Below are positions 6,801 through 64,000 of a DNA stretch of 64,000 bases, piece after piece. Every line of letters starts with the position of its first letter. Position 1 is the first letter of the stretch. The position numbers and the translations under genes are program-made. The notes under the pieces were generated by a model that did no database searches, was not told the DNA's origin, and saw only the letters and a list, made by a program, of their open reading frames with translations. Source of the stretch: Siniperca chuatsi (lineage: Eukaryota > Chordata > Actinopteri > Centrarchiformes > Sinipercidae); NCBI RefSeq assembly GCF_020085105.1, contig NC_058052.1, positions 23,569,733 through 23,633,732 of the forward strand. Direction: 5' to 3'.

Positions 6801-8833
6801 TCAAGATTTGATGAGCTGGATATAGCTTTGATCACGATTTGTGTTGTAATCATTTGAAACAGAGTTATAAAGCAGATTTTTTTTTAATATTTTATATCCA
6901 TCATCATCATCACCACCACCACTGCCATGAAGTCATCCTCACCACTGAGATTGGGGACATAGTTCTGGTATCTCCTCCTCGTCCCTCTCAGGGAGGTGTT
7001 GGGCATGAAGCAGAGCGCCGAGGCTGAGCACCTCCTCCTCACCCTCCACAGCTAGGACCTCTACCTCGGGAAAACTGGCCAGGAGAAGCTGTTGCACACG
7101 GCAGGAAAATGACGCCTAGCCAGAAAATAAAGAGAGAGGGTTCATTTTGCATAATTTTAAGCTTTTACTGTTGTCATTTTATTGCCTGTGAAGCACTTAG
7201 AAATGTCTGTCAGGCATGTGACAAACAAGTAAATAAAATATTGACAAGAAAAGGAATACATAAACAAGCCCTGAAAAAAAACAATAAAGCCAGTTTTTAG
7301 CGAAACATCTCCCACCTGACAACTGTTCCTCCTGGAAACCCCATATTGCCCTGCCCTGTCCTGCTCCTCCTCAGTGCTCCCATCAGTCTGCAGGCTGCTG
7401 ACTTGCTCTGTGAACTGTGTCCAAGTTTTCCCTTCCTCCTCAGCCCTCTGGTCCTTAAACTCCGCCCACGACCCCTCTCCATCCTCCTGTGTGGGCGCTG
7501 AGCAGAAATCTGCAAAGCTGTCACTCTGTGGGAGGTTTCCTAGACTCTGCACCTCTGAATCAGCTGTTTGGACATGTCCTTGGTCCTTGTGATGCTCAAA
7601 ACTACAGTCTTTGAAGTCTGCAAATTTGTCTTCTGTATGTGTTCCAGATTGTGATTTGTTGGAGGTAGAAGAAGTTTCCTGAGTCACAGATTGGTCGCAA
7701 TAATGAAAACCCTTCTCTGCCTGTCTGAGATTTGTCATGCTGTTGTTGACAATAGAGTCAGAACGCCTGTAGTTTCCCAGTTCTTCTTCCTCATCATCAG
7801 TCTGGTCCCAGTCAGTCTGATCCTGTTGTGAAGCAAGAGATGAAATATTTGGTTCCAAGTCCGCAAAGGGACCCTCAAATGACAAATCATCACAGAAGGA
7901 TGCCAGGTCCTCTGAAGCAGACTCATACACACTGAATGTTTGGGGGACAGAAGAAATGCTCTTTTCTCGATCTTCTCTGTCTTCTTCTGACTCTCCATCC
8001 TCCTGCACCTCTGTGGTTTGTAAAGAATTAAAACTACGCCTCCTTTCCCTCTGACCGTCCCCAGGGTTGCCTAACTCCTCCTCTCCAGAATGAGGCTCTT
8101 CAGATGGAAAATCCAAAGCGGCTGCAGCTTCCTGAGGCTGATGGTGGTCCTGAGATGGTTGCACGAGTGCTGCATCTCTTTTCTCACAGTGCTTGACCTC
8201 AGTGCAAACATTTTCTTTTGCCTTATATGCACAACGAGATCTGGGCTCAGAGTCCATAATAACCTCCTGTCCTGGATCACAGATTTCTTCACCCAAGCTG
8301 TTTGTCCCATTTGCTCTGCCATCCCATTGCTCTGTGCTGCCCAAGGGAGTGAAGCCACAGCACCAGGGATGTGCTGCCTGCTCTGTAAACACAGTGAAAT
8401 CAGCAAACCCTGTTTCTTCCCTGGGAGAGCATGCACCCACTGCAGAGGCTATGTGGGTCCCAGAGTTGTGGTCTCTCTCAGAGTACCGATTTGTGAGGTG
8501 CACACGTGATTCAGCATTACAATCCTGCCCTTCCACGTGTATCTGGCCCCTGCCGGACCCTGAGTTCAAAGTGGAAGTGGGTTGGAATTGTTCAGCTGGG
8601 GGATTAAAGCTGCAGTTGGGTTGATGGGTGGCTGGCTTTATGGTAGGAGAAGGATATCTGAGGCTTGATGGTGAATCAGAAGAATCAGCAAAGCCAGGAG
8701 GCAAGCAGGACCCCCCAACAGAGAATCCCCCATAGTCCCCAAACTCGTCCTCCTCTGATCCCGTCTCCCCATCACTATCATCATCCAGTGGAGGGGGGGA
8801 GGAGGAGTGCAATGGCATGATGTCTGGCTCCAT
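897..8833 (-). CDS. aftph: aftiphilin (clathrin/AP-1 accessory protein), nine coding exons
   Basis: Coding exons in transcript order: 7316-8833, 6943-7115, 6023-6149, 5676-5732, 5377-5499, 5124-5184, 1561-1641, 1215-1338, 897-1041. All joins are GT/AG and phase-consistent, and the total of 2409 bp gives 802 aa plus TGA. The start MEPDIMPLHSSSPPPLDD and the C-terminal parts FQWGGSHTNRTLL, GVDRELYELT, RLMSTVEKTSTS and VISGLPNLSFMQAKVLMFP match aftiphilin as I know it from mammals. The first exon (506 codons) is acidic and disordered. It carries repeated clathrin-adaptor peptides: EFGDYGGF (residues 30-37), GFADF, KFADF, SFADF, WAEF and WTQF, the FxxPhi/WxxF type that binds AP-1 gamma-ear and AP-2. 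The last eight exons hold the conserved clathrin-binding region. Family role: endosome/TGN trafficking with p200 and gamma-synergin. The 19-codon exon 5676-5732 and the 3.5-kb sixth intron are notable. The family call is secure; single splice sites could shift by a few bases. Confidence 0.93.
1642..5123 (-). other. aftph: large aftph intron 6, no recognised feature
   Basis: This AT-rich 3.5-kb intron lies between the exon ending SSSQD and the exon encoding LNLDYFGPEEES. The short open frames inside it have no family similarity or splice context. I did not recognise a repeat here. Confidence 0.5.
6898..6923. repeat. (CAT)/(CAC) trinucleotide run
   Basis: CATCATCATCAT is followed by CACCACCACCAC, just beyond the donor of the aftph exon 6943-7115. 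Read on the plus strand it would encode a spurious polyhistidine. Confidence 0.8.
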
Positions 8834-8868
8834 GGGTTCTCCTAGCAGGACCTGAAGGCCTCATGCAC
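8834..8868 (-). other. aftph: aftph 5' UTR part of the first coding exon
   Basis: On the minus strand a pyrimidine-rich tract ends in CCCAG at 8869-8873. This is a good acceptor 35 bases before the ATG at 8833, so the start codon lies in the second exon. The upstream donor candidate is at 10632-10634. Confidence 0.6.
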
Positions 8869-12037: not shown

Positions 12038-14350
12038 TTACACAATAGTGTAGGGTTTCCTGGCTTCATGGATCTTCTTATGGACACGCAGGTTTGAAGC
12101 TGTGTGAAATTTTTTACCACAAACCAAACAGCAAAATGACTTCTTCTCTTTGGGCGCCGTCGTACCACAGGTTTTGAGATGGTAGCTATGGGCGACCATT
12201 TTCCCACACGATTTGCAAAAATATGGCTTTTCCCCTGTGTGCGTCCTCAAGTGTACATTGAGATTTGAATTTTGAGCAAATGATTTCCTACAAAAAGAAC
12301 ATGTGTGTGGCCTTTCACCTGTGTGAATTCTTAAATGCACAGCCAGATGGTCCCGACGGGCAAACTTCTTGTCACATTCGGAGCATTTAAAGGCCTTTTC
12401 TCCCATGTGAATCTCATCCACGTGCCTGATCAGATCAGAGTCCCTGTGAAACTGCTTGCCACAGAAACGGCAAGCCTTTTCATCCTTCTGGGCTTGTTCC
12501 TGCTTCGTAAAAGCAGTGTCACCGAGCCTCGGACCACAAGAGGGTGAGCCATCGCTCCCATGCCATTCATCATCTTCATTCAATGTCACAGTTATAGCGC
12601 TGAAAGTTGGGAACAGCTGGCAGTCTGTCTGACTAGTTGTTTCTGATTGAGTGAGTCTGACTTTGACATCCTCAGAAGAATCATCCTCCAGGTGTGGAAT
12701 AATACAGAGATCCACCTTCTCTTCTTTCACCTGATGGGAGTCACGGGTCTCATTTTCCTCCACAATAGGAAGCTGGTCAGGCTGCTGTGAAGGCAAAACC
12801 TCCTCAGAGACCGACTGGGTGTCTATAAGACAGAGAAGGCACATGCTATAACCTGTTAAATAACCCAGTTACAGCGGTGGAATATAACTAAGTTTACTTT
12901 ACCTGAGTATTTTAATCTAATGCCACTTTCTACTTCTACTCCACTCTAATTCAAAGGGAAATACTATACTTTTTACTCCACAACATGTATTTTACAGCTT
13001 TAGTTATAAGTGATTTTACAAATTAACATTTTTACATACAAAACACATGAAAATGTAAAAGTAGAGCTGAAACAATTAGTTGAATGACAAATTAATTGGC
13101 AACTATTATGATAATCATTTTTCATGCAAAAACATTTCATGGTTCCAGCTTCACAAATGTGTGGATTTCCTGCTTTTCATTTTAATTATTAGGCATGTGG
13201 CAAAGGACCAAAAAGCAGGAGAATATACAGACCCCGGATTTGCATGATTCACGTGGGTCACATTTTCAGGTTAGAAAACCCAGAACTGCTGATTAATCCA
13301 GAAGAATCACATCCCTAAATTATTTAAATGTATTGTTAAAAAATGTTTAGGTTTAGACTATTGGTTGGACATAACAAGCATTGTGAAGATGTCTCTTTTG
13401 GTTCTGATGATGAGCTTGTGATGAGCACTTCCCACTGATTTTTTACAAACCAAACAATCAATCGATTAATCGAAACAATAATAAGCACAATAATCTATAA
13501 TGAAAATAATCATCAGTTGCAGTCCTATTTAAAATGGTTAAAATTAGCTCCACCTCAAACAACTACAACAGTTACATACCGTTTTTATATTAATACATGA
13601 GTAATAAATAATCTACTGATATAATACATAATAATATATCAGTCACAGGGGCCATTTTTCCGGATTATAATAACAAACGTCTACTTGAGTAACATTTTCA
13701 CGACGTTTACTTGTAATGGAGTATTTTACAGTGTTGTGTTAGTACTTAAGTAATGGATCTGAATACTACCTTCACCACTGGTTATATTTAAGACAAAGAT
13801 GCTGTATTTGTACAAGTGCAAGTAAGACGTGTTTTAGTCAGATGTTTTCAAAGCGCCAAATGTGGGAGGATCAACTTAATTTTTACAGCCATTACAGTTT
13901 AATCTGTGTTCATGAAGTTGCCTTGATTTCCTCCAGCGACTTAGCTAAAATGTCACATAAAGTTGGGAAGTACGATATGGGCTGATCCATCAAAAATATC
14001 TTTATGGAGTTGTAGGATGCTAATTATCTACTAGCTGACAACTTTAGCTGCTGTGTTTGCTAATGTCACTAGCTGTAGCCAATCTGTTGCCTAGCAACGA
14101 TTTACGGCTTCTTAGCAACCAGCCAGAGGCTACATTAAAGACGACACAAACCTGCTCTGAATAATATCACTTTAGGGTTTAAAACGGTCAGCTGCTCGAG
14201 CTGCTTTTTCAGCTGGTTGACTTCTCTCTTGGAGCGGGCAGCTTCATCCTGATACTCTGCTATCGTCTTTTCAACAAGTCCAAAGATTTCCTCGGCAGCC
14301 GCTGCCAGTCGCTCGTTGACCAGCAGTCTGAGCAGCTGCGTCCCCGACAT
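12038..14350 (-). CDS. C2H2 zinc-finger protein, array copy 1
   Basis: Two coding exons: 14152-14350 (MSGTQLLRLLVNERLAAAAE..., 66 codons plus 1 base) and 12038-12822. The donor CAG|GTTTGTG and acceptor TTATAG|AC join in phase 1 to give 327 aa. Exon 1 is the leucine- and charge-rich coiled-coil N-terminus common in teleost zinc-finger genes and is thought to mediate protein contacts. Exon 2 begins with an acidic linker containing a sumoylation-like VKEEK. It then has five fingers: CRFCGKQF..H..H, CSECDKKF..H..H, CSFCRKSF..H..H, a degenerate CKSCGKMV..H..C (CCHC spacing), and CLVCGKKF..H..H, joined by HTGEKP-type linkers. It is probably a nuclear DNA-binding protein; the target is unknown. The 1.3-kb intron is lengthened by a 909-bp transposon missing from copy 2. 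An in-frame upstream ATG at 14395 is less likely, because the family usually starts at MSGTQ-like sequence. Confidence 0.85.
12872..13780. mobile_element. hAT-like non-autonomous element in zinc-finger copy 1 intron
   Basis: The ends read CAGCGGTGGAATATAAC and, inverted, CAGTGGTGAAGGTAGTA. Text such as TACTTCTACTCCACT and GTACTTAAGTAATGGATCT is shared with copies at 53427-54970 and 62288-63020. GTTA flanks both sides (12868-12871, 13781-13784). The matching intron of copy 2 reads CCCAGTTATATCC with no insert near 16240, giving the insertion point. No transposase frame was seen. Confidence 0.75.
13062..13535. repeat. ATTAATCGATTAATCG-type dispersed repeat, nested
   Basis: Starts with GCTGAAACAATTAGTTGAATG and ends near ATAATCATCAGTTGCAGTCC, with ATCAATCGATTAATCG close to its right end. 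It is a very common fish repeat. It sits inside the hAT-like element, which accounts for much of that element's length. Related copies lie at 19878, 30665 and 59975. Confidence 0.65.
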
Positions 14351-14880
14351 GATGGAGCACCGACTAACGTTACCGGTAAATGTGGAGGGTGGCACGCGGA
14401 CTTTAAAATAAGGAAATAAACTATTCGGGAACCGAAAGCCGCACAGTTAAATAAACTAACCACGGATGTATAATAACACCAACTAACCAATGGGGCAACG
14501 TGAGTTGAATATTTCCAGTACAACGTCATGACGTACAGGATTAATTCTCACCAGCGCCCCCTGCTGCCGTGGATGGCTTTCTGTTTCCAAATGTGCGAGT
14601 TATAACCATACACCATGTATAAAACAAGTTATAACAAATACTGAAAAATTAATTAGAGAAAAAAGATACATGTTTGCATTACAAATTTTGAGAGGGCTTG
14701 CTAAAAAATGTATAATAATAAAAACATATGTAGCTACTGTACAAACCAAAAATGAGTTTGTTTTATTTTATAAAGACAAAGTATGAAAAAACAACTTTTA
14801 CATTTTATTTGTCTTCTTTAAAAGAATTGGTTATTTTATGAACAAAGTGTGAAACTGCAAACCCTCAGAAGAAGTTTGAG
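13785..14880. repeat. tandem duplication unit, left copy
   Basis: The segment from TGTACAAGTGCAAGTAAGA through exon 1 of copy 1 and its upstream flank matches 16256-17232 almost base for base around the exon, less closely further out. It ends in the shared AAACTGCAAACCCTCAGAAG. Confidence 0.85.
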
Positions 14881-15352: not shown

Positions 15353-16798
15353 TTAACTTTTCTCTTCTAACTCCTGTCCTTGCAGTTTCTTCCTGATGTA
15401 TCGTTTCCATGACTCGTGAACCTCCATATGCATCTTCAGGTCTGAATCTGTGTGAAAAGTTCTGCCACACGTTAAGCAGCGAAAGGACTTATTTGTGCTT
15501 TTATGTTGTGTCCCTGTGCAGTGTTTAGCATGCTTGCTACTGGCAAACCTCTTGTCACATTTAGCACAAAAATATGGTTTTTCCCCAGTATGCTGTCTCA
15601 TGTGAACAAGTCGACTTGCGTTCTCAACAAAGGTTTTGTCACAGTAATCACATCTGAAGGGCTTTTCACCTGCATGAATTCTTGAATGCAGAACTAGCTG
15701 GTACCTTTGTTCAAACTTCTTGTTGCACTCCAGGCATTTAAAGCCTTTTTGCCCTTTGTGACTCTTGTCTACATGCCTTATAAGAAAAGAGTCCCTCTTA
15801 AAACTTTTACCACAAAAACTGCAAGACTTTTCTTCCCTCGGAGGCTGTTCCAGTTGCACAACAACTTCAAAGCTTTGACTCTGACGAGGCGACGATGACC
15901 CATCACTTTCTTTCTGTTTGTCGTCCACGCTTTCGTTTACACTCACGGTTACAGCAGTGGAAGACAGGAACAGCTCACAGTTAGTGGTTGGTTCTGATTT
16001 AAGAAGTCTGACTTCAGCATCGTTGGAAGTATCAGCCTCCATGTCCGCACTGATACACTGATCCACCTGCTCCTCTTTGACCTGCGGGTGCTGTTGGATC
16101 TCTGTTTCCTCCAGAACGGGAATCTCTTCCACCTTAATGTCACATTGCTGCAGTGAAGGATGAAGTTCCTCAGAGACCGGCTGGGCGTCTAAAGGGCAGA
16201 GAGGACACATGATATAACCTGTTAAATAACCCAGTTATATCCAACACAAATATATTTGTACAAGTGCAAGTAAGACGTGTTTTAGTCAGATGTTTTCAAA
16301 GCGCCAAATGTGGGAAGATCAACTTAATTTTTACAGCCATTACAGTTTAATCTGTGTTCATGAAGTTGCCTTGATTTCCTCCAGCGACTTAGCTAAAATG
16401 TCACATAAAGTTGGGAAGTACGATATGGGCTGATCCATCAAAAATATCTTTATGGAGTTGTAGGATGCTAATTATCTACTAGCTGACAACTTTAGCTGCT
16501 GTGTTTGCTAATGTCACTAGCTGTAGCCAATCTGTTGCCTAGCAACGATTTACGGCTTCTTAGCAACCAGCCAGAGGCTACATTAAAGACGACACAAACC
16601 TGCTCTGAATAATATCACTTTAGGGTTTAAAACGGTCAGCTGCTCGAGCTGCTTTTTCAGCTGGTTGACTTCTCTCTTGGAGCGGGCAGCTTCATCCTGA
16701 TACTCTGCTATCGTCTTTTCAACAAGTCCAAAGATTTCCTCGGCAGCCGCTGCCAGTCGCTCGTTGACAAGCAGTCTGAGCAGCTGCGTCCCCGACAT
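15353..16798 (-). CDS. C2H2 zinc-finger protein, array copy 2
   Basis: Exons 16600-16798 and 15353-16188 join in phase 1 to give 344 aa. The first exon is identical at protein level to that of copy 1 and differs by about one base (near 16769). Exon 2 starts (D)AQPVSEELHPSLQQCDIKVE, an acidic region with VKEEQ, then has five fingers: CSFCGKSF, CLECNKKF, CDYCDKTF, CAKCDKRF (CCHC type, H-AKHC) and CLTCGRTF. Linkers are degenerate in places (HAGEKP). A minus-strand AATAAA run at 15284-15296, about 60 bases past the TAA, is a good polyadenylation signal. The likely role is sequence-specific nuclear DNA binding; the target is unknown. Confidence 0.85.
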
Positions 16799-17232
16799 GA
16801 TGGAGCACCGACTAACGTTACCGGTAAATGTGGAGGGTGGCACGCGGACTTTAAAATAAGGAAATAAACTATTCGGGAACCGAAAGCCGCACAGTTCAGT
16901 AACAGGAAGTTAATGCTTCAATTTCAACGTCATGACGCACAGGATTAATTCTCACCAGCGCCCCCTGCTGCCGTGGATGGCTCTCTGTTTCAAATGAATG
17001 ACTGTCAATTAGAGAAACAAAGTACATGTATGTATTACAAATATCCAGAGGGTTTACTAAAACATTAACATATGTAGCTACTGTACAAACCAAAAATGAG
17101 TTACCTTTATTTTATACAGACAAAGTATGAAAAAACAACTTGTACATTTTATTTTCCTTCTTTACAAGAATTGGTTGTTATTTTATGAACAAAGTGTGAA
17201 ACTGCAAACCCTCAGAAGAAGTTTGAGAAACT
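16256..17232. repeat. tandem duplication unit, right copy
   Basis: Counterpart of 13785-14880. The exon-bearing part is near-identical. The flank beyond about 16895 has indels relative to the left copy but regains similarity at GTAGCTACTGTACAAACC and through to AAGAAGTTTGAG. Confidence 0.85.
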
Positions 17233-17659
17233 TAATGAGCACAGTGGGATTACCACTTTGTTTCTTTCCAAATGTTTTACTTGCACTGTGTGACGATGTG
17301 GTTATTTGTACACATCAGCAACGGTTCCTGACCCAGCCCAAACTCTCTAAAGACAAGGAAAAACCTTTAGGGCAAAGGGGGAAAAAGTGGAAGTATCTTG
17401 GGGAGAGGAACTATAGAGAGAGAGAGATCCCTCCTCCTTGATGGCAACACTTGTTTATTATGCTTGTGTACGATACAACAAGCAAAAACATATGGCTTGG
17501 AATCCATAGGTCATTTGGGACAGTTTATTTGCTTCTCCACCATAAATGAAAAAAATAACATTTGATAACATTTTTGATGACTCTGGATGCACGTTTACTG
17601 ATTCATTTTTGAAAAACACATTTGGTGTCACAAAGACTCTGACGTTCTCTCATACAGCT

Positions 17660-20600
17660 TTAACTTTCCTCTTCTAACTCCTGTCCTTGCAGTTTCTCAC
17701 TGATGTGTCGTTTCCATGACTCGTGAACCTCCATGTGCACCTTCAGGTCTGAATCTGTGTGAAACGTTCTGCCACATGTTAAGCAGCGAAAGGACTTATT
17801 TGTGCTTTTATGTTGTGTCCCTGTGCACAGTTTAAGATGATGGCTACTGGCAAACCTCTTGCAACATTTCTTACAAAAATATGGTTTCTCTCCAGTATGC
17901 TGTCTCATGTGAACAATACGATTAGAGTTCTGAGTGAACGTTTTGCCACAGAAATCACAACTGAAGGGTCTTTCACCGGTGTGAACTCTCGCATGCAGAA
18001 CAAGCTGGTGCTTTTGATTAAAGTCCTTGTTGCATTCAAGGCATTTAAAGGCCTTCTCCTCTTTGTGATTCTCATCTACATTCTCTGTTTCTGGTGCGAT
18101 TTTGCACTCATTCTGCATTTTGCAAAATCTGAAGTGATTGCTCGTGGCAAAACTTTTCCCACATTTCTTACAAAAATACGGTTTCTCTCCAGTATGCACC
18201 CTCATGTGAGCAAGACGACTTGAGTTCTGAGTAAAGGTTTTGTCACAGTAATCACATCTGAAGGGCTTTTCACCTGTGTGAATTCTTGAATGCAGAACTA
18301 GCTGGTACCTTTGTTCAAACTCCTTGTTGCACTCCAGGCATTTAAAGGCTTTGTGCCCTTTGTGACTCTTGTCTACATGCCTTATAAGAAAAGAGTCCCT
18401 CTTAAAACTTTTACCACAAAAACTGCAAGACTTTTCTTCCCTCGGAGGCTGTTCCAGTTGCACAACAACTTCAACGCTTTGACGAGGCGACGATGACCCA
18501 TCACTTTCATTCTGTTTGTCGTCCACGCTTTCGTTTACACTCACGGTTACAGCAGTGGAAGACGGGAACAGCTCACAGTTAGTGGTTGGTTCTGATTTAA
18601 GAAGTCTGACTTCAGCATCGTTGGAAGTATCAGCCTCCATGTCCGCACTGATACACTGATCCACCTGCTCCTCTTTGACCTGCGGGTGCTGTTGGATCTC
18701 TGTTTCCTCCAGAACGGGAATCTCTTCCACCTTAATGTCACATTGCTGCAGTGAAGGATGAAGTTCCTCAGAGACCGGCTGGGCGTCTAAAGGACAGAGA
18801 GGATATAGCCATATACAGGATTTTTGAGGCTATTGATAGTTTTAAAAATATGATAACCACATATTGGCTGATATTAATGTTCTTTACACAACCCATAACA
18901 TAAATTTAAAATATTAATATGGTTCCCTTAAATTTTTGCAACCAAGAAATGTACTACGGAGTACATTTTACAGTTGCAGAATAAACTTGTCACTACTCTC
19001 TGGTGGACAAACTAAATGTTTCAAAACATATCTTTTTCTGTGCTTCAGTTTCTTGTCATTAATCAGCTGACATTTTCACCGATATTGATATATCTGCAAT
19101 GACCGGTCAGGCTCAACTAAAGATATTTGCATATACATAGATTCTGGATTTTTTTAAAGAGGGAGAAGGAGTAGAACCAGTTCATTAAACTTTCTTGTGG
19201 AAAAAAAATCCAGATCAGACACAAATTATTATTCAAAGCAGAGTATTTTATGTCTCAAAACATGTCTGGAGGAGATCTTTAAGTAACTATTATCTACCGT
19301 ACTTTAGCTTGATATGTGTAACCTTTTGTTATGTCAGGTCTCCAGCATTTATGTAAAAACATATCACCAGATGACATTGGTATCTACCTTGGTTTGGTTT
19401 ATTAACAGAGTTTCTCATTCATAGACTTAGATGTGGCAGCTTGTGTTTAAACTGGGACAAAGACAAAGTCATTCATTAAAAAATAAGTGTATTTGGTATT
19501 CTGGTGACCGAATTGTTAAGCTGCAGGCCATATAACTGCAACGTCCCCGGTTCAACCTTTGATGCATGTCATACCCTTTTCTACCTCTCTCCCTCCATGT
19601 TTCCTGTCTGTCTCTATACTTTCAACCGTCCAGTAAAAAAATGCCAGCACTTTCTTTCTGACTACTTTCTGGTACTTTCTCTCTGGGCTTGCAGTGGGAA
19701 AAAAAATAAAAATAGCAGTCCTTACTCCTCACGTCTTACCTTGAGAGGAATGAGAATCCTTGGTCCTGTCGTTTTCTGAATCCTGTTATTATAGGGAAGA
19801 CAAAATGAACACTTTTATCTCTGATTTAAGTACATAACTATTACAAAACAGTGCTATAAATGTGGTTGATCTAGTTTAGGGCTTCAACTAACAATTACTT
19901 TCATTGTAAATTAATTTGCAGATTATTATTATTATTATTGATTAATTATTTAATGGCTGGCCTCTAAAATGTAAGAAAATGGTGAAAAATTCTCTTCAGA
20001 TGTCTTGTTTTTTTTTCCGACCAACAGTCCAAAGATATTCAGTTTACTATCACATAACACATAAGTCAAAGAAAAGCAGCAAATCCTCACAATTTAGAAG
20101 CTCGAACTAGGTAGTATTCAGTGTTTTTGCTTGAAAAATAAATGATTAATCACTTATCTGCTAATCGACTTACTGATTAATCGTTTCAGCTCTAATATAG
20201 TTTGAATGACAATTAAGATAAGATGCATTATTTCAACCACCTTACTGTGCAAATCTGTCGTAAATTTTAAGACTGCTCTTCTCTTTGACTTATAAAATAA
20301 CTTCGATGCACCTGACATTTGGGAGCAGATTTGACGTCTTTGGAGACTGTTTCAAGATGTTATGACAATAATTTACAGCTGACAATTCTGTCATTATCAT
20401 TAACGCTATTTACGAAAATAATCGTCCAGCGGTTGAGTTTTGTAATGTAGCTAATCTAATCTCTTCATAACATGTAAGGTTTCTTACAAAATAAACACAA
20501 GGACAAAATATGATCAATATCAACCTTAGACTCCGTTACACTTGGTTGTAGCTTGCACGAGGTCAGAAAACGGTGCATCGTGTCGGTCCTCGGCTGTACG

Positions 20601-20806
20601 TTAACTGTGTAATGCTCCGGAACAAAATGCTCTGAGCATACAATATATTTCTTCAGCTCGTCCAGGGGCGTATTTACATCGATGTTCAAGGCAAACAGCC
20701 ATAGTTTCAGCCGCTCAGGTTCCCTTAGTGGAAGGCGGTGAAACGACAAAGCAGTGCCAGTCTTTGCTTTATTTCTGCATTTCTTCACAGCGCAGGAGTG
20801 AGGCAT
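17660..20806 (-). CDS. predicted THAP-domain/C2H2 zinc-finger fusion, array copy 3
   Basis: Exons 20525-20806 (94 codons, THAP), 19740-19782 (43 bp, encoding DSENDRTKDSHSSQ) and 17660-18786 (eight fingers). Phases 0, 1 and stop fit exactly: 1452 bp, 483 aa. The THAP zinc module shows C5-x4-C10, HRLP, LKLWLFAL and C-S-E-H-F, i.e. the C2CH ligands plus the invariant Trp; the usual AVP box is altered to LQPSVT. Exon 3 shares the opening AQPVSEELHPSLQQCDIKVE with copy 2. It then has eight fingers, of which two (CKKCGKSF..., CKKCCKRF...) have C in place of the last H. The copy has no MSGTQ-type exon of its own. The donor AAG|GTTGAT of the THAP exon is weak; the bridging exon has good sites (AACAG|G and AAG|GTAAGA). 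Alternative: the THAP exon is a separate gene and the zinc-finger exon is a partial copy. Role if real: nuclear DNA-binding protein with two kinds of zinc module. Confidence 0.68.
18787..19739 (-). other. intron between bridging exon and zinc-finger exon of copy 3
   Basis: The similarity to copy 2 stops almost at the exon border, within about 20 bases past the acceptor. The intron holds a degenerate tRNA-derived SINE near its upstream end and otherwise AT-rich text with no recognised feature. Confidence 0.5.
19500..19735 (+). repeat. degenerate tRNA-derived SINE
   Basis: Contains ATATAACTGCAACGTCCCCG, then GGTTCAACC (B-box-like), then TTTGATGCATGTCATACCC and a pyrimidine-rich body with TTTCCTGTCTGTCTCT. 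This order is familiar from a widespread teleost SINE. The A-box half is damaged. Confidence 0.65.
19878..20198. repeat. ATTAATCG-type dispersed repeat
   Basis: Runs from GGGCTTCAACTAACAATTAC to GATTAATCGTTTCAGCTCT, with CAACAGTCCAAAGATATTCA in between. Same family as the copies at 13062, 30665 and 59975. It lies in the intron between the THAP exon and the bridging exon. Confidence 0.7.
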
Positions 20807-20922: not shown

Positions 20923-21560
20923 TTTGATTGGCGGTTGGCAACCATCTTGTATGTACATTACCGCCACCTACCGGACCGAAGTGTGGAACAATAGATTGGC
21001 AGACAAATAAGACACACACAAAAAAAGAAAAACTAAATAAAATAAAAAGACAAAAAAATAAAGAAAGCACTTACATTCTTTCTATTAACCCTCTTTCCTT
21101 CAGGTATTTAATTAGGTGATTGTATATTCCTAGTGCCGCATCTCCAAGTATGTTCCCTACAGTGAAACTTAGCTTTCTTTAGTGCTGATGTCAGTTCCTT
21201 CCTTTCTTGTACTCTAGCAGCGCATGCTGGACAGATTCAGGATTTCCAGTGGGTGCATCTACCAGTTGGGTGTTTACCTATTTTATGAAGTGTCTTATTA
21301 AGTCCAGTATGTCCTATCCTTAGACGGTAATGACTGCTTCTTCCTTTCGGTTCCTGCCCAGCCTTCTTCCCGAACCCAACCTGTTTCTGAATATTATAAA
21401 TATGTCTTCCTGTATTGTTTATGTCCCAGCATTCTTGCCATACTTTTTTCATTTGTCTCTTAATGATTGTTTTACCCTCAGCTTGAAGTCTCTCCCTCCT
21501 GCCTTTCCTGGATACTTTCAAGCACAGCAGAGAAGACATCATTTTCAACAGCAACATGAA
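20923..21560 (-). mobile_element. non-LTR retrotransposon (LINE) 3' fragment
   Basis: The minus strand encodes a fragment with KQMKKVWQECW-like text, RHIYNIQKQVG and RLRIGHTGLNKTLHKIGKHP-TGRCTHW. This matches the C-terminal tail of LINE ORF2 proteins just after the RNase H-like region, where the GHTGLN...GKHPTGxCxxC zinc-knuckle pattern occurs. The 3' UTR-like part holds GGCGGTTGGCAACCATCTTG on the plus strand. It is 5'-truncated and not functional. The clade was not assigned. Confidence 0.75.
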
Positions 21561-21599: not shown

Positions 21600-22195
21600 A
21601 CAGAGCTGAGGACGTGATTTCTCGTCATGTGGACTGAAGACTACGGTTTCTCTCCTGTGTGGATTCTCTTACGGACACACAGGTAGGTGGCTCTGGGTGA
21701 AAGATTTGCCGACAAGGTCTCCCTCCGGTGTGGGTTCGCAGGTGCACCAGGAGGTGGTCTCTAAGCAGGAACACCTTGCTGCAGTCGTTGCACTTAAAAG
21801 GCCTCTCATCCACGTGTCTTACAAGGTCAACATCCTTTATAAAGCAAGCACAGCAAATGTGACCTCAGTGTGAGATTGTAAATGATCAGATAAACCTTCT
21901 CTGGTCTCAAATATGTTTCCACAGCAAATACTACCACAGGCTCTGTGAGCTGAGGTACTCTGGGGAACAGCAGCTCATGTTTAGCTGCCACTCTTTTTCT
22001 TCTTTATTTACATGAGCAGCAGCAGAGCAGCACTTTGTTCCACAAAGTTGGAGGGAGCGGCCTCCGGCGTCGCTGTCAGCTCCATTTCTTCCTCTTTGAT
22101 CTGCTGGAATAACTGATCTTGGCTCTGCTGCGGCTCCATGTTGGGATCCCACTCCTGCTGAGGGGGAAACATCTCTTCTGAGACTTCAGAGACAT
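21600..22195 (-). pseudogene. decayed C2H2 zinc-finger exon
   Basis: An acceptor AACAG|ATGTC opens an exon reading DVSEVSEEMFPPQQEWDPN and IKEEEMELTATPEAA, the standard acidic lead of fish zinc-finger genes. After a stretch that has lost its frame, one finger survives (FKCNDCSKVFLLRDHLLVHL, then RTHTGG). The next finger is spread over three frames: CRQIF, then GKSFTQSHL, then VRKRIHTGEKP. It has therefore suffered at least two frameshifts as well as loss of most fingers. No first exon was found upstream. It is probably a dead member of the neighbouring array. Confidence 0.75.
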
Positions 22196-28264: not shown

Positions 28265-33946
<5,682 letters not shown>

Positions 33947-34110
33947 CTTGAGCAGAATAGCATAGGAAGGTTATTATCGGAGCAGAGGCAGCCCTGCCGG
34001 GGAGTCTGGTGTGTCAGCGTCGTGGCACTGACTCAGGAGGATATTCCTGTTCCTGCTCCTGCTCCTATTCCTGGGTCTCCACGTCTGAAACTGGCCTGAC
34101 AGCGAGCTCA
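33947..34110 (-). promoter_or_regulatory. lgalsl: probable lgalsl promoter and 5' UTR
   Basis: GC-richer sequence directly upstream of the lgalsl ATG, with tandem TCCTGC/TCCTGT motifs at about 34045-34070. There is no TATA box. The boundary is approximate. Confidence 0.35.
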
Positions 34111-34679
34111 GCCGCCTAGCAGGACATCCCTCCGCTCCACTGCCTGTCTGAAATGGGTGGATATCTGCTGACGTATGCTTTATAATAATTACAGACTAAA
34201 AGCTTAATCCCCGTCTGTTGGAGAAGGCTAATCAGACAGATTTTCCTCAACCCTTCACCCAATTAGGCAACGTGCTCTTTGGGCTTTTTATTTCTAGATT
34301 TCAACAGCAATCCAGTTTATAATTCAGATTGAATAACTGGTTTGTGTGTGAGCGCCAGACCGCTGCACTCATGTGTGGTCTATTCAGTTCATGTGTGACA
34401 CAGTGTGGCTCTGGCCTAATTGGCCAAAGTATGCACGCTCAATACTTTTGAATGATTAAACAATACTGTAGGCCTCTGAGGCCACAGCGAGTTTTAATTA
34501 GACCAGGTTCTGCTCAGTTGTGAGCCTGGAACATGAATTGCTTTTCAGTCAGTGAAGGAGACATTCATATTGTCTCCCTTTCATTGATTATTGCACAAAC
34601 AACCCCCTGCCTTTCTGCCTTTCTCCCTCTATCTGTCCATTCCTCTGCATGCAAACCCCTCCCCTATCTCTCTCTCATT

Positions 34680-37352: not shown

Positions 37353-40300
37353 ATGGCCGCGGAGGCTGCCGGTCTCGATGATGCAAAGGCCGGTCTTGCA
37401 GACTGCACCGAGATGGAGGAGAGGGTAAGATGCTTTTGGATCATTTAGGATGCTCTCTTTGCGAAAACGATCAGGATTGAGTGCCTTGACAGCAGGCCTT
37501 TCCAGTCCCTGACGCGCTGCTGCAGCAAGATGGAGAGAGACTCTGAAGGATGCACACCGCCGCAGCGACCGCGACGATTTCTGTTATTTGGTTTTGGCAC
37601 AATATTCTGCTAGACAATTAGGTTTTGAGGGAGGATGAGCTTTATCGTTTAAGCAACTGGGAGATAAGGGGGGAAGCGAGGGAGCGCCGTGCACGCACCG
37701 TACTGCTGCTGCAGAGCTCACATCCTGTGTGACGCGCTGATGTAAAAGGGAGAAGCGAAAGTGCAGCAGCTGGTCGGTAGGCTGTGTTGGCTACCGAGGC
37801 TCAGCTTATAAATAGCCCGACAGTAGCCATTCTTCAACAGTTTGTGTCTCACTCGCCTCGTTTTCTGCCGAGAGAGATTTGAGCGCGCCTGTCAAGCCCG
37901 TTTTCTTCCACTTGGCGGTGACGCAAGTTGGCAACAACTTGGCAGGAAAGGTAAGTTTTTTCCTGATCAACAGAGCCGAGTATGAATGAAAAGAGAGGCT
38001 TTGTTGGGCTCATTAAGGTTATTATCAGAGGAGAGTGTCGAGCAGAAGAGCCTGCAGAAGCGCAATGAGGTGTTTTCTCTAATTATAGACCTGTTCATCA
38101 ATGGGACTGCTACTAAATGCTCTTTATATTATTGATTTTCTAACAATTCTATATTTGGATAAAATAATCAAGCTCTTAAAATGTTAAAATCACAAGTTAC
38201 CAGAGCCCAAAGTGAGCAGGGTTCATTAAGAATGGCAGGCAATAAAACCCCACATTATTCATTTTATGACAGGAAACAGTGTATCAAGTTAATCTGACAA
38301 CTTGTGAAGCTGTAACCATCAAATATTTGTTGTTTTTGTGCAAAAAGGCTACAAAAATTATTTGTTTTTGTTATTTTGATTAAAAAAAAAACACAATACA
38401 TTTTCTTCTGAGTTCTGAGTAAAGCCACCTGTTACAGGCTGTGGAGATGGGTGTCTGTGCATGCATGTGTGTGTGATAGATGGGCATTCTTCTGAGGAAA
38501 GCATCCGTTCTCCACCTGCCGGCCAGCGAAGCTGAACTCGTTCTTCCACTTTGCACTTACTCGACTGATATGTTTGTGCTTGCTGCTCTTTAGTAGGCCT
38601 AGTTGTCTGCAGTCTGCGGACTCACTCATCAGCCGCTCTTCATCCTTTTCACTTCCCCTTATTTGTGTCCATCTTCTCTCTGGGTGAGTGTTGTCTGCTT
38701 CATACGCCATCAAGTTTACATTTTTCTGTAAGTGTGTTTAGACTTGATCTTTTGTGTTATCTAAGTGTTATCTCAGATGTCGCTGATGGATCTTAACTGG
38801 GTTTAAAATCATCTTGAGGTCTAAAATGATCACAACAGAATGAGGGTGAGATCCGTCTTGGTGTATATTTTGCAGATGTAGGCTATAGTGCCAAAGGTAA
38901 GGGCAACTAAATGCGTCAGATTACGCAATGCAATCGCCCTAATCTCCTCACTGGAAAATGAGAGATGCTGGATTAAAGGAGGGAGTTAGTTGGAGACCGG
39001 GGGAAACCCGTGAAAGAAGGCCGTTATTAGAGATTACTGGGCAAAGGATTGTTTTACGACCCAAATACTTTGTCTGCTGAAGCTTGACAAGATGCAAAGA
39101 AACCACCAGGAATATCAGAGTATGCGAGAGCTTTTTCGGTATGCTGTTGTGCCAGAAGTGAGGTTAATCTTGGATTTTTGGGTTAAAAAGCAAACATTCT
39201 GCAATCTTGAAAAAAGCCTAATTTGGTTTCCTCCTGCAGTGGATTGGTGACTGGCTTGCTTAGAAGAATTGTTTGCATTTTTTTTTCAGCTGTTTGCAGT
39301 AAAGCCTTTTTAAAGCACCACCACTCTTACTGATGGAGCTACAAACTTCTGCACAGAAATAAAACTTAGCCGGGAGGCAAATGTTGTTGAATTGTAGTTT
39401 AATTTATTGTTTCTCAGAAAGATTTTCACCCAAATTTTTATTGTAGTTAGCAGTACCAAGCAGCAAATGTTGTGTTGCGAAGAGTCAAGTGTTTGCTGAT
39501 GTGTTGTCACCCTCCATCTGATGAAGCGTTACACTGCTTAAATGCACCTAACATTTTTGATTTGATATGTTACTTTACATCCCTCTTTGATACATGTCCA
39601 GTACAGCAAAAATAGTTAGAGTTCCTGAGAATGTGAATGTGCCATTACTATTTCCATTTTCAACATTAATTTTTATGAAAGTTTTATTTAGGATTGAAGA
39701 TTTTGTAATGAAAATGTTTTTATCTCACCCATTTAGGGTGGTTTATCAGCAGGATAACACATGAAAATCAATGCTCCACAGTATGACCAAACCAGCCAGA
39801 TGTGGTGACATAAACAGGAGGAATCATCAAGTTGAGAGCCTTGTATTAAACCATACAATACATATGATATAATATGATATGATACAATACATTTGTCTGG
39901 TGTTTTGGGGATGATCACTGCAACATGTTATAGTTAGAAAAAAAGCACATTCTTGTCTGAGAGGTTCTTTCACTTTGCATTTTCGCAGTTAATTGAATAT
40001 GTAGGGTTTGTTGTTCCTATGTGGGATTACAAAATAAAGAAGGAGGGAAAATTTCTTCTATGCGTAAAAATACTTGGCCAATAAAGCTGATTCTGCCTCC
40101 GACTGATGTAAATGTTTGCGATATAACGTCTGGAAAAAGCAGGTGTAAAATTTGTTGAAAAACAAAGAGGGAGACTTGACCACGTTGGCCCTTCTTATCA
40201 TTAATAAGTAATGTGTGTATTACAATGAAACCACTTAGACAAAAACAAACATAAAGCAAAATATGCCAGTAAAGTGTAGTGCACTTCAGGAACGCTTTCT

Positions 40301-46300: not shown

Positions 46301-48402
46301 CAAACATTTTACCTCAATAACATTATTGGATTTGTCCTGTGGTGCTGGGTAGGAAATTGGTTAGATCATCCGTGTCAGGAGTGCAAGATGAAAAATAAAG
46401 TGTTGGGCCTAAATGCTCCACCGGTCTTCTGTTTTATTAGTTTAATTATGCAAATCCAAAACCATGGTTACAGTAATTAAAAGCTAAGTCTTTTGAATAA
46501 CGTTACATTAAATGTAAAAAGTCATCACTTAAGTCATAAGAACAGATTTTTACAAGGCTTTTACAGAGCTATGACTTTGTAACCGATTAATAATTTGAAT
46601 ATGAAAGTAGTTAGTAGGCTAATCAACTAAAATTACATTTGGTTTTGTCGGTCATCAGTTATAAGTTACTGTGCGTACTGAACTCAGTCTCAGTCATAAT
46701 AACTGGAGAATAGAAGTGACCGATTCACTGCTGTATCTCTAACTCTTCATTAGGGGAAAACTTCCCAAATAGTAAAAAAAGTAGCCCAAATTTTCACAAG
46801 AACAATTTCAGAAAACTATCCAATTTGGCAACGCTGGTTTGCATGCTTTTGTGTAGCCATCAAGGTAAAAGTTTCAGGAAACATCATGTATTAGTACATT
46901 GCTGTATGTCGTGCAGTTTATATGCTGTAAAGAAGTTTCTCTTTGTGCTGTCAAAGTAAAGCATGCAAGTCCTCCGAGGCTGCCACTCTACATTCAGCCT
47001 CACCCCGGCTTGCATCACCATCCAAAGTCTGAGCTTTAACCAACCTGATCGGCAGCTCAGTTTGCAATATGCAACATGTTTATGGTCCCATTGAGCAAAT
47101 GATCATATCTGCAGAGCCTTGATTGATCAGTTCTCTCACTAACTTTCTGCTTGTAACTACTCTGTTTTGGAAGAAAAACTTTCCACTCAACTGAACTTCT
47201 ACTGTCAGCAATTCACATTTTAATCTTTTCCACAGAGGAAGAAGCTGTAAAGAAAGTCTTGTTCTCAAGCCATAAAAGGAAACGATCGAGCAATACAAAT
47301 TAAAAATAGAGTATTTGGCATTTCACCAGATATTTCTGTTGGAGCTCTGCTTTAATCATTAAGTTGAAAATGTGACTTCATTCTTTATGTGGAATCCAGA
47401 CAACTGTAAGATGTGAGAGAAAACTGACAATGTTGTTGTGATCTCTCAGGCACTGATAGAGATCAGTGAAAGTGATAGATTACTTTATTGCCCTTTTTAC
47501 ATTCTGCAGTTATTGGAGGAAGAATAATAACAGCTCTTGATTCAGATCCCTGATTCATTACAAAGACCCTTCTGTTCCAAAGGAGCCCCTCCAACCAGCT
47601 TTAATTAGCATTTCATGTAATATTTATGTCATGTGTGATGTAGCAGCCTGTCATGTTACTGAGCTGCAACTTCTGGATAAAACTCCTACTGGCAATTTTT
47701 AAAGAGGAATCGCTGTAAAAATTATTTGTGTTATATTTCAGACCTTGGCGTCATCTGTTGTGTTAATGATTTTGCAACACGCTGCAGAACAACAAGTGAG
47801 TTGTTCTGCAGCATTACATGACACACAGGTTGTTGAAACTGTTCACGATACATAATATGAAAGACATTCCTGGTATGAATAAACACACCTTTTAGCACGT
47901 GTGCACATCGTCTGTTTCTGTTTCAAATCATTCTTTCTTTTGTCTTAAATACAATGTGGGATCAGTCAGCTAATGCGTGATACATTAAAAATGTAAAAAA
48001 AAAAAAAAAGATAATACTAATAAAATAAGGTCAGTTTATCAAAATGCCTCTTCCTCCCAATATCCGTCGCTCAGGTCTTGTTGTTTTCCTCCGTGTTGTC
48101 AGGCAGGTTCGTCCTGCAGGTTTTGTCTCTGCTACTTTCGGCTGCCACCACCTCCCTCGGAAGTGATTGGCATGCATAGAGGCGAGGTGGATCATCAGTT
48201 ACGAAACAATTAGGAACGTGGGAGAAAATTCACTGTTGTCATCCTGTGGCTCTTTTTGTTTTCTCACTTCGTTTCCTGTGTGTGTTACAGCGGGGGTCAG
48301 AGGCGCAGGGTGTCTCTCGGAGCGGCTCTGCTTCAGAACCCAGAGCTGCTCATCCTGGACGAACCGACAGTCGGAGTGGACCCTGTGCTCAGGGCCAAGT
48401 AT

Positions 48403-48433
<31 letters not shown>

Positions 48434-51400
48434 TCATAACTGTTTCTTCCCACGGTGGCTGTTATCCAATTTTTGTCATTCTCTGAAAAATACAGCCCTG
48501 TTGTTTACCAAGATGAAAGATGAACAATTCACGTCATTTCACTCATAAAAACATAAGAAACTAAAGGGAGACACTAGATTTACATACATTTCCAGAATAT
48601 ATCCCACTAGTAGTGAACTCAACAGAAGACCTGTATAATCCTGGCAAAATAAGATATGAAAATCTCAATATCCCTAGTGATTAGTAGAAGTATTTAGTAG
48701 TGGACCTTCCAATTCTTTGTATCTTTCATTTTCATAGCATTTGTGACTTACAGCCGTGATGGCTGACAGTAGAGAGTAACAGAAAACTTTTTGAGAGACA
48801 AAGATGACACGTGACCAAAGGTAATCAGCAGGATTAGAAGCAGTGACATTGCAGTTACATGGTAGTAACTACTGTAGGAGTCAGTGATATGGTGCCTGGT
48901 AAAAAAAATCATGAGTAGAGAAATAAGACATTTTATTCAGCAGGAACAGTTGAATGAGTTCGCAAAATAGCATCAGTAAACTGTAATGTATCCTTAAACA
49001 CAAGGAAAAGACAACATTTAGACTGTAACGTGATTAATCAATAGCCAAAATGCTAGAGGAAATCTTTGATATCACAATATTGATGTATTGTATTGTATGT
49101 ATGTAATATTAATGATGTCATATCAATATATTGCCTGGCTGTACTAGCTATGGGAATCAAGATTACTTTCCTGGTAACTCACTTGGCTGTAATTGCTCTT
49201 CAAGAGCTTGTTAGCTTGTTTGATAAGTTTTGCTGTTGTTGCTTGAGAATTGCTTTGATCTTAACTTTCCCCAAAGCTGTTTTTTTGTGACCTAAAATTA
49301 ATCTAGCCTTGTCACATGGCATGCAGGTGAAAATAGCATCTAACAATGTCCACGTTTCTATCTTGGAAACATTGCGGCTTCAATATTACAGCTTGGCAAC
49401 TGGGAAATAATTTGTATGGACAAACTCTACACAACCATTTAGGCATATGTTCAAGCAACCTTTTTGAAAGCATACTGCCCTCCCTCAGTGTGTTGTTCCA
49501 GTCTCATTGTATAATAGCACCACAAAGCCTCATCAGATCAGACGGCTGGCAGGCAAACTGCTGCTGGCGAAGCTGTGAGCTTTTTCAGACTACGATTTTA
49601 GGAAAAATCCATTAACAAGCGGGTCAAGTGTTATGTAATTAATTTGGTTTCTTCGGTCTCTTTCTTCGAGGATCTGGCAGCATCTGGTGGAGATTGTGAA
49701 GACGGGGAAAGTCTCTGTCATCATCACCACACACTACATAGAGGAAGCGAGGCAAGCCGATGTGGTGAGATAATTCATACATGCATGGGGACACACACAC
49801 AGAACCCACATGCATGCACATAATCACACAAGGACAAATTAAGCATAAATACACACTCACAAACAAGAATCAGGGATTCAGCTGCAAAATCAATAGAAGA
49901 AAGCACCACATCCACACTAGTCCTCATGTTTCGCCCCTTCGTAGAAAAACAATGAGTCCATTGATATCTGCACTGTGTCAACATGTTAGATGAAGTTTGT
50001 TCTTTATTAGCTTTGACAGGAGGAACAAAAGTTCGCATTGAATGAGAGACTTCCTATAGAGAAGCTCTCTTGTGTCTTTATTTTACGTTTTACTGACAAA
50101 ACAAAAAGTTTGCTTACATTTTAAGTTTCTTGTTCATTTCGTTTTGTTCAGAATTTCTTCTTTTTGTTCATGAATAAGTTTGAAAGATAAGCCTGGTGAT
50201 CTTCTATATTTTTCTTATTGTCAACAAATCCTATGAAAAAACCCAACAACAATAAATTGATCCGACTAACAAGTTTTGTCTGTGTATCCAAAGCCTAATA
50301 TATCTTATTCCTCTGTGTCATAGAGCTTCTTTATTGTCTAAAAACTATTAAAAACACATCAGTGAGCCACACTGTTGCACTGGATGACATTTTCCTTCAT
50401 TATGATGAACATTGGCACTCTAGTTTAGTTTCAGGTCAAACCCACATACATCGTCCTGCTGCTGTATATTCACTAGGGCACCTAATATGTATTTATCCGC
50501 CACTGAAAATAGTCCCCAACAAATGAACGATTTACAACTGAAATTATTCAGCCTTTTTTTTTTATTTTAACAAAACAATAATGTTTGTGACCCAAACAGC
50601 AACAAAGTGCCGCAGACAGGATAGATGGACTAATACATTTACGGTTTTGGTCTTTTCATGTGATTGTTTAAAGTAAGGAAAATGTAAAATAATGCCAGCT
50701 TTATCCATTAAGTGCAGTCTGTGTAAAAGGATATGTTTTAATGACACTGATACTTATAGTTTTTTTTTATTTACACAGATAAGTAATGGTCATGCTTTTA
50801 TACACAGAAAAATATGAATTACTAGAAAGTACTAGAAGTAATTACCTGAAAGAAGTTTATTGGCTATGACTACATAATTTGTATCATCTGATCATGGTGC
50901 AATAGATTAGATGATTGGTCTGGACATTGGACCTTTGCAGCTGGTGACTCAAATCTGTGCTCAAAACTGTCTGAACCCCACCCAGCGAATATATTGTGAC
51001 AGACAGAAACAGAAGGAGAACAGGAAGTAATGCAGACACACATTTAAAAATTCAGTCACCAGAGAGCTGTTACAGACTTTTTTTGGTTTCATTTGTGCAC
51101 ATAAAGTCACAAATTTCAGGCAGAATCATGTCAAAATACTACTGACAACTAGTAGATTTATGGTAAATGGTCACACACAAGAACAACAGTACAAAGTATG
51201 TGGGCTCTATACATACAGTAAATCTATAGCCCCGCATTTTTACAGTACATTTAACACCCATGTCACCTTCACTGCTGCTCAAACTAATGCTTGACTCAGC
51301 ATAAATCCAGTTATTCCATGAATTCAATCATTGTTTCACCAGTAATCTCCATTGTATGTGAATACCGCTCAGCTAGCTCAGTAATGTCTCCATTCAGGGT

Positions 51401-63238: not shown

Positions 63239-64000
63239 GTCAAAGTTCACACTGCTCCTACAGTGCCACACAAAAGCTGCGTCCCATTTCCATTACTACT
63301 ACTGTACATATTAATTCTATGCAGGTTTTGAGGTTGTAATGCGTCCACACTGTTAAGAGTGAGAAAATTAAGTATACTCAAGGAATCCAGTATGCATATT
63401 AAAACACACTTTTTCCTACACTACAGTGTAAAAAGGAAATGGGGGAGCTTCTCAGCTGCCAAAAAATCTAAATAACAGTGGATATGAGTGAAACAGCTAC
63501 AGGAATATGTTCGAAAACAAACCGAAAAAAGTATTAAATCTTTGAAAAAACATTAAGCTTTCATTCTATTTGACTGGCAGTAGCATTTCGAAGCAGTTTG
63601 ACGTGTATTTTACTTTATCAGATTATTTCCCTTTTAATTTGTCTTGCGTCCCAAGACGTACACTGTTTCACATAAAACAACAAAACAAATACCGAACATA
63701 TTACATCAGACATTACGAAGAAGTGGCTGCTCCCTTTTACATTCAGTGCTCGGTTTACAAAGGTACACTGAGGCCTACTTAGAACCCAAACTCTGATTTG
63801 ACAGAGGAACAAAAGAGTTCCAGTCTTTTCAGTCGAGAACGCTAAATCTTCTGTTTGATGGCAAAGCTGATATTCTTCAAATAAAATATGCGAGGGGTCT
63901 GATGTAATATTACCAGCCAGAGACAACATCCTTTTAGTGTTCGCAGTTTGAAAACTTGACTCAAGCGTTTGACCCACAATCTTTGCGCAGATACGTAGCG

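Follow-up and report, generated by a model that had tools for sequence, protein, structure and literature searches.

The stretch of DNA analysed here, hereafter the window, is C11:23569733-23633732 of the 719-Mb genome of Siniperca chuatsi and has a length of 64,000 nucleotides. On its minus strand, three exons at 20806-20525 (282 nt), 19782-19740 (43 nt) and 18786-17660 (1127 nt) together form a stop-free reading frame, the translation of which predicts a 483-residue protein comprising, in this order, one THAP module, an acidic spacer and eight finger units. The coordinates, lengths, phases and 483-residue open frame had been given in an earlier note on this DNA, and translation confirmed them. 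Exon 1 starts with the ATG at 20806, carries the THAP module and ends in phase 0 at AAG/GTTGAT; exon 2, a linker (DSENDRTKDSHSSQ), is entered in phase 0 and left in phase 1; and exon 3, entered in phase 1, contains the acidic spacer, all finger units and the stop codon, 3' of which a motif search found AATAAA signals at 17529 and 17459 (17529-17454). Two related zinc-finger genes, referred to as sisters 1 and 2, lie on the same strand at lower coordinates. Elsewhere in the window, a 567-residue open frame was observed at 7157-8860 (minus strand), which has no Pfam match at E values up to 0.001 and presumably resembles aftiphilin-type clathrin-binding proteins, together with a stretch at 48214-48483 (plus strand) that by eye is ABC-transporter-like.

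The results from the Pfam search indicate that exon 1 encodes a THAP domain spanning about 20794-20534 on the minus strand (47.9 bits, E value 2.3e-12; cut-off 23.9), with only positions 1-63 of the 87-position profile aligned. When exon 1 is aligned with five paralogous THAP exons from this genome, the remainder of the domain can be seen as well, down to the final invariant proline. The residues invariant in THAP domains are the C2CH set, P, W, F and a final P, and all eight of them (C5, C10, P26, W36, C57, H60, F61 and P88) are kept in exon 1 and are constant across the six-row alignment. The canonical THAP end motif, AVPTIF, is represented by LQPSVT, which keeps the invariant proline and little else; this divergence and the incomplete Pfam alignment weigh against the model. 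Among solved structures, phmmer matched the domain to THAP1 (E values 2.9e-6 and 5.1e-6) and THAP2 (E value 0.002); the THAP1 structures are 2ko0 and 2jtg, and that of THAP2 is 2d8r. The single C2CH THAP module claimed for exon 1 is thus borne out by both the Pfam score and the invariant residues.

THAP modules in general are often transposase-derived, as had been pointed out for this exon. However, when the genome was queried with 601 bases spanning the exon, no further DNA copy came up, and a genome DNA search found none of the 43-nt linker exon, a missing match being no proof of rarity in either case; nor was a transposase noticed in the open reading frame lists of the window. At least 47 other listed matches of the 601-base query, at 75-94% identity, all fell within query bases 1-122, which correspond to an upstream dispersed repeat; the matches cover it between 21000 and about 20886, a few of them reaching 20879. 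By eye this is the 3' end of a LINE (21300-20886, minus strand; the limit at 21300 is likewise by eye), and it stops about 80 bp short of the THAP ATG, which was counted against the fusion model. The closest other THAP protein match in the genome, among the matches listed, shares 51% identity over residues 1-67. We considered whether the THAP exon came from a transposon and set this reading aside, given that no second DNA copy of the THAP or linker exon was found and that the nearest listed relative is 51% identical; an older origin of this kind may nevertheless apply. Farther upstream, at 22186-21644 (minus strand), there are degenerate remnants of a zinc-finger gene, finger-like at 21858-21644 and, by eye, spacer-like near 22186.

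The finger array of exon 3 (F1-F8; 18427-17723, minus strand) was delimited by translation, Pfam and self-comparison. The exon scores 103.8 bits with zf-C2H2 and 132.5 bits with zf-H2C2_2, and HTGEKP or HTGERP linkers join the units in the translation. The earlier note had counted eight C2H2 fingers; eight units are indeed present, but only six (F1-F3, F5, F6 and F8) are canonical C2H2, while F7 is C2CH (C-x2-C-x12-C-x4-H) and F4 is C2CC (C-x2-C-x12-C-x5-C). Fingers F2-F4 and F5-F7 constitute an internal three-finger duplication, for which the comparison of F2-F3 with F5-F6 gives a dS of 0.33-0.45 and a dN of 0.13-0.14. The dN/dS of the internal finger modules is about 0.3-0.4.

Both sister genes start with a coiled-coil first exon situated on a CpG peak. 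In sister 2 this exon (16798-16601, minus strand) ends in phase 1, as found by translation and splice scan, and is followed by a finger exon with five units (16188-15353) that is patchily near-identical to exon 3. Sister 1 has a first exon at 14350-14153 encoding the same 66-residue protein, and a five-unit finger exon (12822-12038) that at the DNA level is about 67-68% identical to the finger exons of sister 2 and of the window's THAP gene model. The first-exon regions with their flanks (13811-14410 and 16259-16858) are identical at 598 of 600 positions, the upstream flank being less similar and rich in indels; this identity suggests recent gene conversion or duplication. As had been claimed, exon 3 lacks the coiled-coil first exon of its sisters: that exon occurs in the window only at the two positions above, and no third copy, including upstream of 18786, was matched at E values up to 5. 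A relative used as a second probe gave one extra match in the window at chance level (E value 3.2). A simple tandem duplication of the segment from finger exon to coiled-coil exon was rejected, since the stretch between the matching blocks is only 38-48% identical per block and the intron end is shared by sisters 1 and 2. These two properties make sisters 1 and 2 look collinear, the extra sequence in the intron of sister 1 being presumably a transposon.

The homology between exon 3 and sister 2 consists of two blocks (94.5% and 87% identity), which begin 17 nt upstream of the acceptor and reach about 77 nt beyond the stop codon. Sisters 1 and 2 have about 49 nt of intron end in common, which are absent from exon 3; exon 3 thus has an upstream intron of its own. 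Block by block, exon 3 is 97-100% identical to sister 2 in its first 500 bp, the later fingers being less similar. Third positions differ in 5 of 176 codons in the spacer, F1 and F2 and in 4 of 56 in F8 and the tail, whereas in F3-F4 they differ in 8, 9 or 14 of 45 depending on the pairing (p from 0.001 to 2e-7 versus spacer, F1 and F2). None of the 63 fourfold sites in the spacer, F1 and F2 differs. The corresponding dS values are 0.02-0.03 for the first part, 0.31-0.41 for the F3-F4 comparisons and 0.06-0.11 for F8 and the tail, on short segments (28-56 codons for F3-F4, modules and tail) picked after inspection of the alignment. In F1-F2 dN (0.029) exceeds dS (0.015-0.024), on six differences. 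The first half of the sister 2 module resembles F2-F4 and the second half F5-F7, so that sister 2 may have descended from an eight-finger array by deletion. The simplest reading of these comparisons is that exon 3 and sister 2 are two old genes patchily homogenised by gene conversion. Exon 3 looks like an old, constrained exon and not a fresh orphan copy, although exchange with other finger genes could mimic its age.

Splice sites were scored with a simple position matrix based on vertebrate frequencies. The 43-nt exon has an acceptor of 7.05 bits and a donor of 10.83 bits, the latter being the best on the minus strand between 17.5 and 21 kb, and the acceptor of the finger exon scores 9.3 bits. 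The good splice sites described earlier are therefore present at these positions, but the THAP-exon donor at 20525 is weak (2.04 bits), compared with 5.8 bits for the donor of the sister first exons. All joins of the predicted fusion gene keep the frame open. An exon with an acceptor of at least 7 bits, a donor of at least 10.5 bits, the right phase and no stop arose in 0.1% of 2000 first-order Markov introns, with thresholds that were chosen after the 43-nt exon was known. On both strands of the window the 43-nt exon is the sole one at these acceptor and donor scores and in the right phase; 4 of 312 window stretches scored for such an exon, and in all four it was the 43-nt exon itself. Lowering the donor threshold to 8 bits or more adds three further such exons in the window.

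An alternative THAP donor, TTT/GTAAGA at 20488, scores 3.83 bits in phase 1 and leads in open frame directly to exon 3. Among paralogous THAP open reading frames, the best donor-like site, a candidate in each case, is in phase 0 in 10 of 12 (binomial p 0.0005). These 12 are the frames, out of 14 listed and read by eye, in which a candidate site reaches a score of 2 or more in the 60 residues that follow C-x2-H, a limit set by the analyst. This habit of the family favours the donor at 20525 as the site of the predicted splice; by the same measure, however, the window's own best donor is in phase 1, since 20488 outscores 20525.

A CpG-rich stretch (20950-20051) covers the THAP exon and the first part of intron 1; its observed/expected ratio rises to 1.11, whereas the median of 1273 sliding windows is 0.33. 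In the 64 kb, a ratio of at least 0.85 is attained by seven merged stretches, of which this is one. Two of the others, 14051-14800 and 16501-17200, cover the sister coiled-coil first exons, and four have no first exon assigned (13451-13850, 33451-34150, 37501-37950 and 63501-64000). The finger exons have ratios of 0.45-0.51, and between 20051 and exon 3 no stretch reaches 0.85. Because the THAP exon sits on a CpG peak as the sister first exons do, it resembles a region in which transcription starts, and it is the nearest such region upstream of exon 3. The CpG peak alone does not single out the THAP exon, since splice and CpG scans reveal a competing first exon in the same stretch (20318-20174, minus strand), with an ATG at 20318 and phase-1 donors at 20246 (5.7 bits) and 20174 (5.4 bits). 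Between 26000 and 18850 there are five combinations of an ATG with a phase-1 donor at 4.2-5.9 bits, above both THAP donors, which fall below the cut-off of at least 4 bits used for this list. Three start from an ATG at 21557, two of these reading partly into the by-eye repeat, and two from the ATG at 20318. We consider these alternative first exons less likely, as no domain was recognised in them by eye and the strong 43-nt exon would be skipped. The scans also revealed a competing terminal exon for a THAP-only transcript (19451-19380, minus strand), with an acceptor of 9.0 bits, an early stop and an AATAAA at 19403.

In the rest of the genome, 20 regions with other THAP matches (16 from one list of at least 100 genome THAP matches that includes that of the window, and 4 from a second search) were scanned with a strict motif roughly 5 to 9 kb downstream. 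None contained a C2H2 array near the THAP match, and two had one isolated C2H2 motif each. By eye, and among the at least 100 THAP matches and the listed part of 357 finger matches, the pair in the window is the only THAP and finger match on one strand within 10 kb; a THAP at C22:23663733(+) has a finger match about 1.2 kb away, on the opposite strand. The coiled-coil first exon has at least 98 listed genome matches beyond the two in the window, many of which share a chromosome stretch with finger matches. The nearest relative of the window's THAP, among the matches listed, is found at C20:17740000-17749900 (minus strand), where MBT-repeat exons (35.5 and 31.8 bits with Pfam MBT) lie downstream of two THAP exons and share their strand, an arrangement that, read from the sequence, represents a possible THAP-MBT gene.

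Taken together, the rarity of the 43-nt exon, the CpG peak, the age of the finger exon and the failure to find second copies of exons 1 and 2 support the three-exon reading, and we regard a THAP-zinc-finger gene of three exons as the best, though partly supported, interpretation of the sequence. The exact fit of lengths and phases, on which the earlier note had leaned, does hold, but it is weaker evidence than was claimed, since there are a second in-frame route from 20488, other phase-1 first exons and a possible THAP-only ending. We therefore propose that this is probably a host gene in which a THAP first exon is joined through the 43-nt linker to a finger exon of the fish coiled-coil C2H2 family, encoding a chimaeric transcription factor. 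A variant of the same fusion would splice from 20488 (a 319-nt exon ending in phase 1) straight into exon 3, yielding 481 residues without the 43-nt exon and leaving the domain build unchanged. Its donor is the stronger of the two (3.83 versus 2.04 bits) and its frame is open through exon 3, but the very strong 43-nt exon would be left unused and phase-0 donor-like sites after THAP are commonest in the paralogues, so that we judge this route improbable.

It is unlikely, although less so than splicing from 20488, that there is no fusion and that two neighbours adjoin, i.e., a short THAP-only gene ending at 19451-19385 and a finger exon that is served by another start, such as the ATG at 20318 or an unseen one, or that is an unexpressed relic. 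The weakness of both THAP donors, the acceptor at 19451 with its nearby AATAAA, and the phase-1 donors of the ATG 20318 exon within the same CpG stretch all agree with such an arrangement, and an internal ATG in exon 3 (MEADTSND...) would still yield all the fingers. Yet the THAP-only protein would add merely 10-15 residues to the THAP module, the ATG 20318 exon would contribute only about 24 or 48 residues, in which no domain was recognised by eye, and the dN/dS of the internal modules speaks against a long-dead exon 3. The least probable of the alternatives is that the finger exon of sister 2 was recently copied, that the stray copy landed downstream of a THAP gene as exon 3, and that its frame is intact from youth. 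The near-identity over the first 500 bp would fit, as would the restriction of homology to the exon and its short flanks; however, third positions or dS reveal much greater divergence in F3-F4 and in the internal three-finger duplication, which a single recent copy does not explain, and the sister 2 array resembles a deletion product of an eight-finger array.

If the proposed fusion gene is expressed, transcription would begin at the THAP CpG peak, and the 43-nt linker would be spliced in so as to correct the phase between the THAP and finger exons. In the protein, the THAP domain, a large C2CH zinc module, might read a short DNA motif and the finger array a longer adjacent one, with THAP standing in for the N-terminal coiled coil of the family. 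The protein would act as a sequence-specific regulator; its targets might be transposons, as has been suggested for other zinc-finger genes of fish. Tentatively, and with rather more doubt than confidence, we suggest that this vertebrate THAP-C2H2 factor is long-lived and that gene conversion has kept its finger exon similar to that of the neighbouring coiled-coil C2H2 gene, in which case two adjacent genes would present nearly the same spacer and first fingers behind two different N-terminal modules. The general view of zinc-finger families is that they diversify through the fingers behind a fixed N-terminal module. Here a second DNA-binding domain seems to have replaced the N-terminal module itself, and the finger exon retains sequence in common with its coiled-coil neighbour; if transcribed, the THAP and coiled-coil pair would constitute a natural domain-swap experiment on similar fingers.

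The human THAP proteins are THAP0-THAP11, and we know of none with a C2H2 array; architectures combining THAP and C2H2 may be listed in domain databases for insects and fish. No vertebrate THAP-C2H2 gene is named in the titles or abstract starts of the open-access literature searched, nor in the papers cited below as far as their text was available. In the portions of these papers available to us, THAP is absent from the main text of a study of metazoan zinc-finger genes (PMC10547256) and from PMC11788884, and C2H2 is absent from PMC10027918. In the accessible parts of a sea-cucumber preprint (PMC13228809), THAP is listed with other zinc fingers and not with C2H2 arrays, while those of PMC5596316 and PMC6146974 give THAP and C2H2 factors as separate families.

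With the fish coiled-coil C2H2 family the window gene shares the finger exon, the acidic spacer, the preceding phase-1 intron, the tandem cluster and conversion-like sharing of sequence, but it would have THAP and a linker in place of the coiled-coil first exon. As in other THAP proteins, its THAP is N-terminal and has all eight invariants, and to this the window gene would add a C2H2 array. In the THAP11-ZNF143-HCFC1 promoter complex, separate THAP and C2H2 proteins act at shared sites, whereas the window gene would join both types in one protein; no HCFC1-binding [DE]HxY motif was seen by eye in the predicted 483 residues. FiNZ and KRAB, unlike THAP, are not DNA-binding modules. According to the accessible part of PMC10547256, FiNZ/KRAB zinc-finger genes combine an N-terminal module exon with a finger-array exon, as would be the case here. 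The TIGD homologues, domain-shuffled genes of cyclostomes and gnathostomes with CENP-B_N, zf-H2C2_2 and zf-C2H2_4 (PMC11788884, as far as its text was available), likewise unite a transposon-type DNA-binding module with C2H2 fingers, that module being CENP-B_N in their case and THAP in the gene predicted here.
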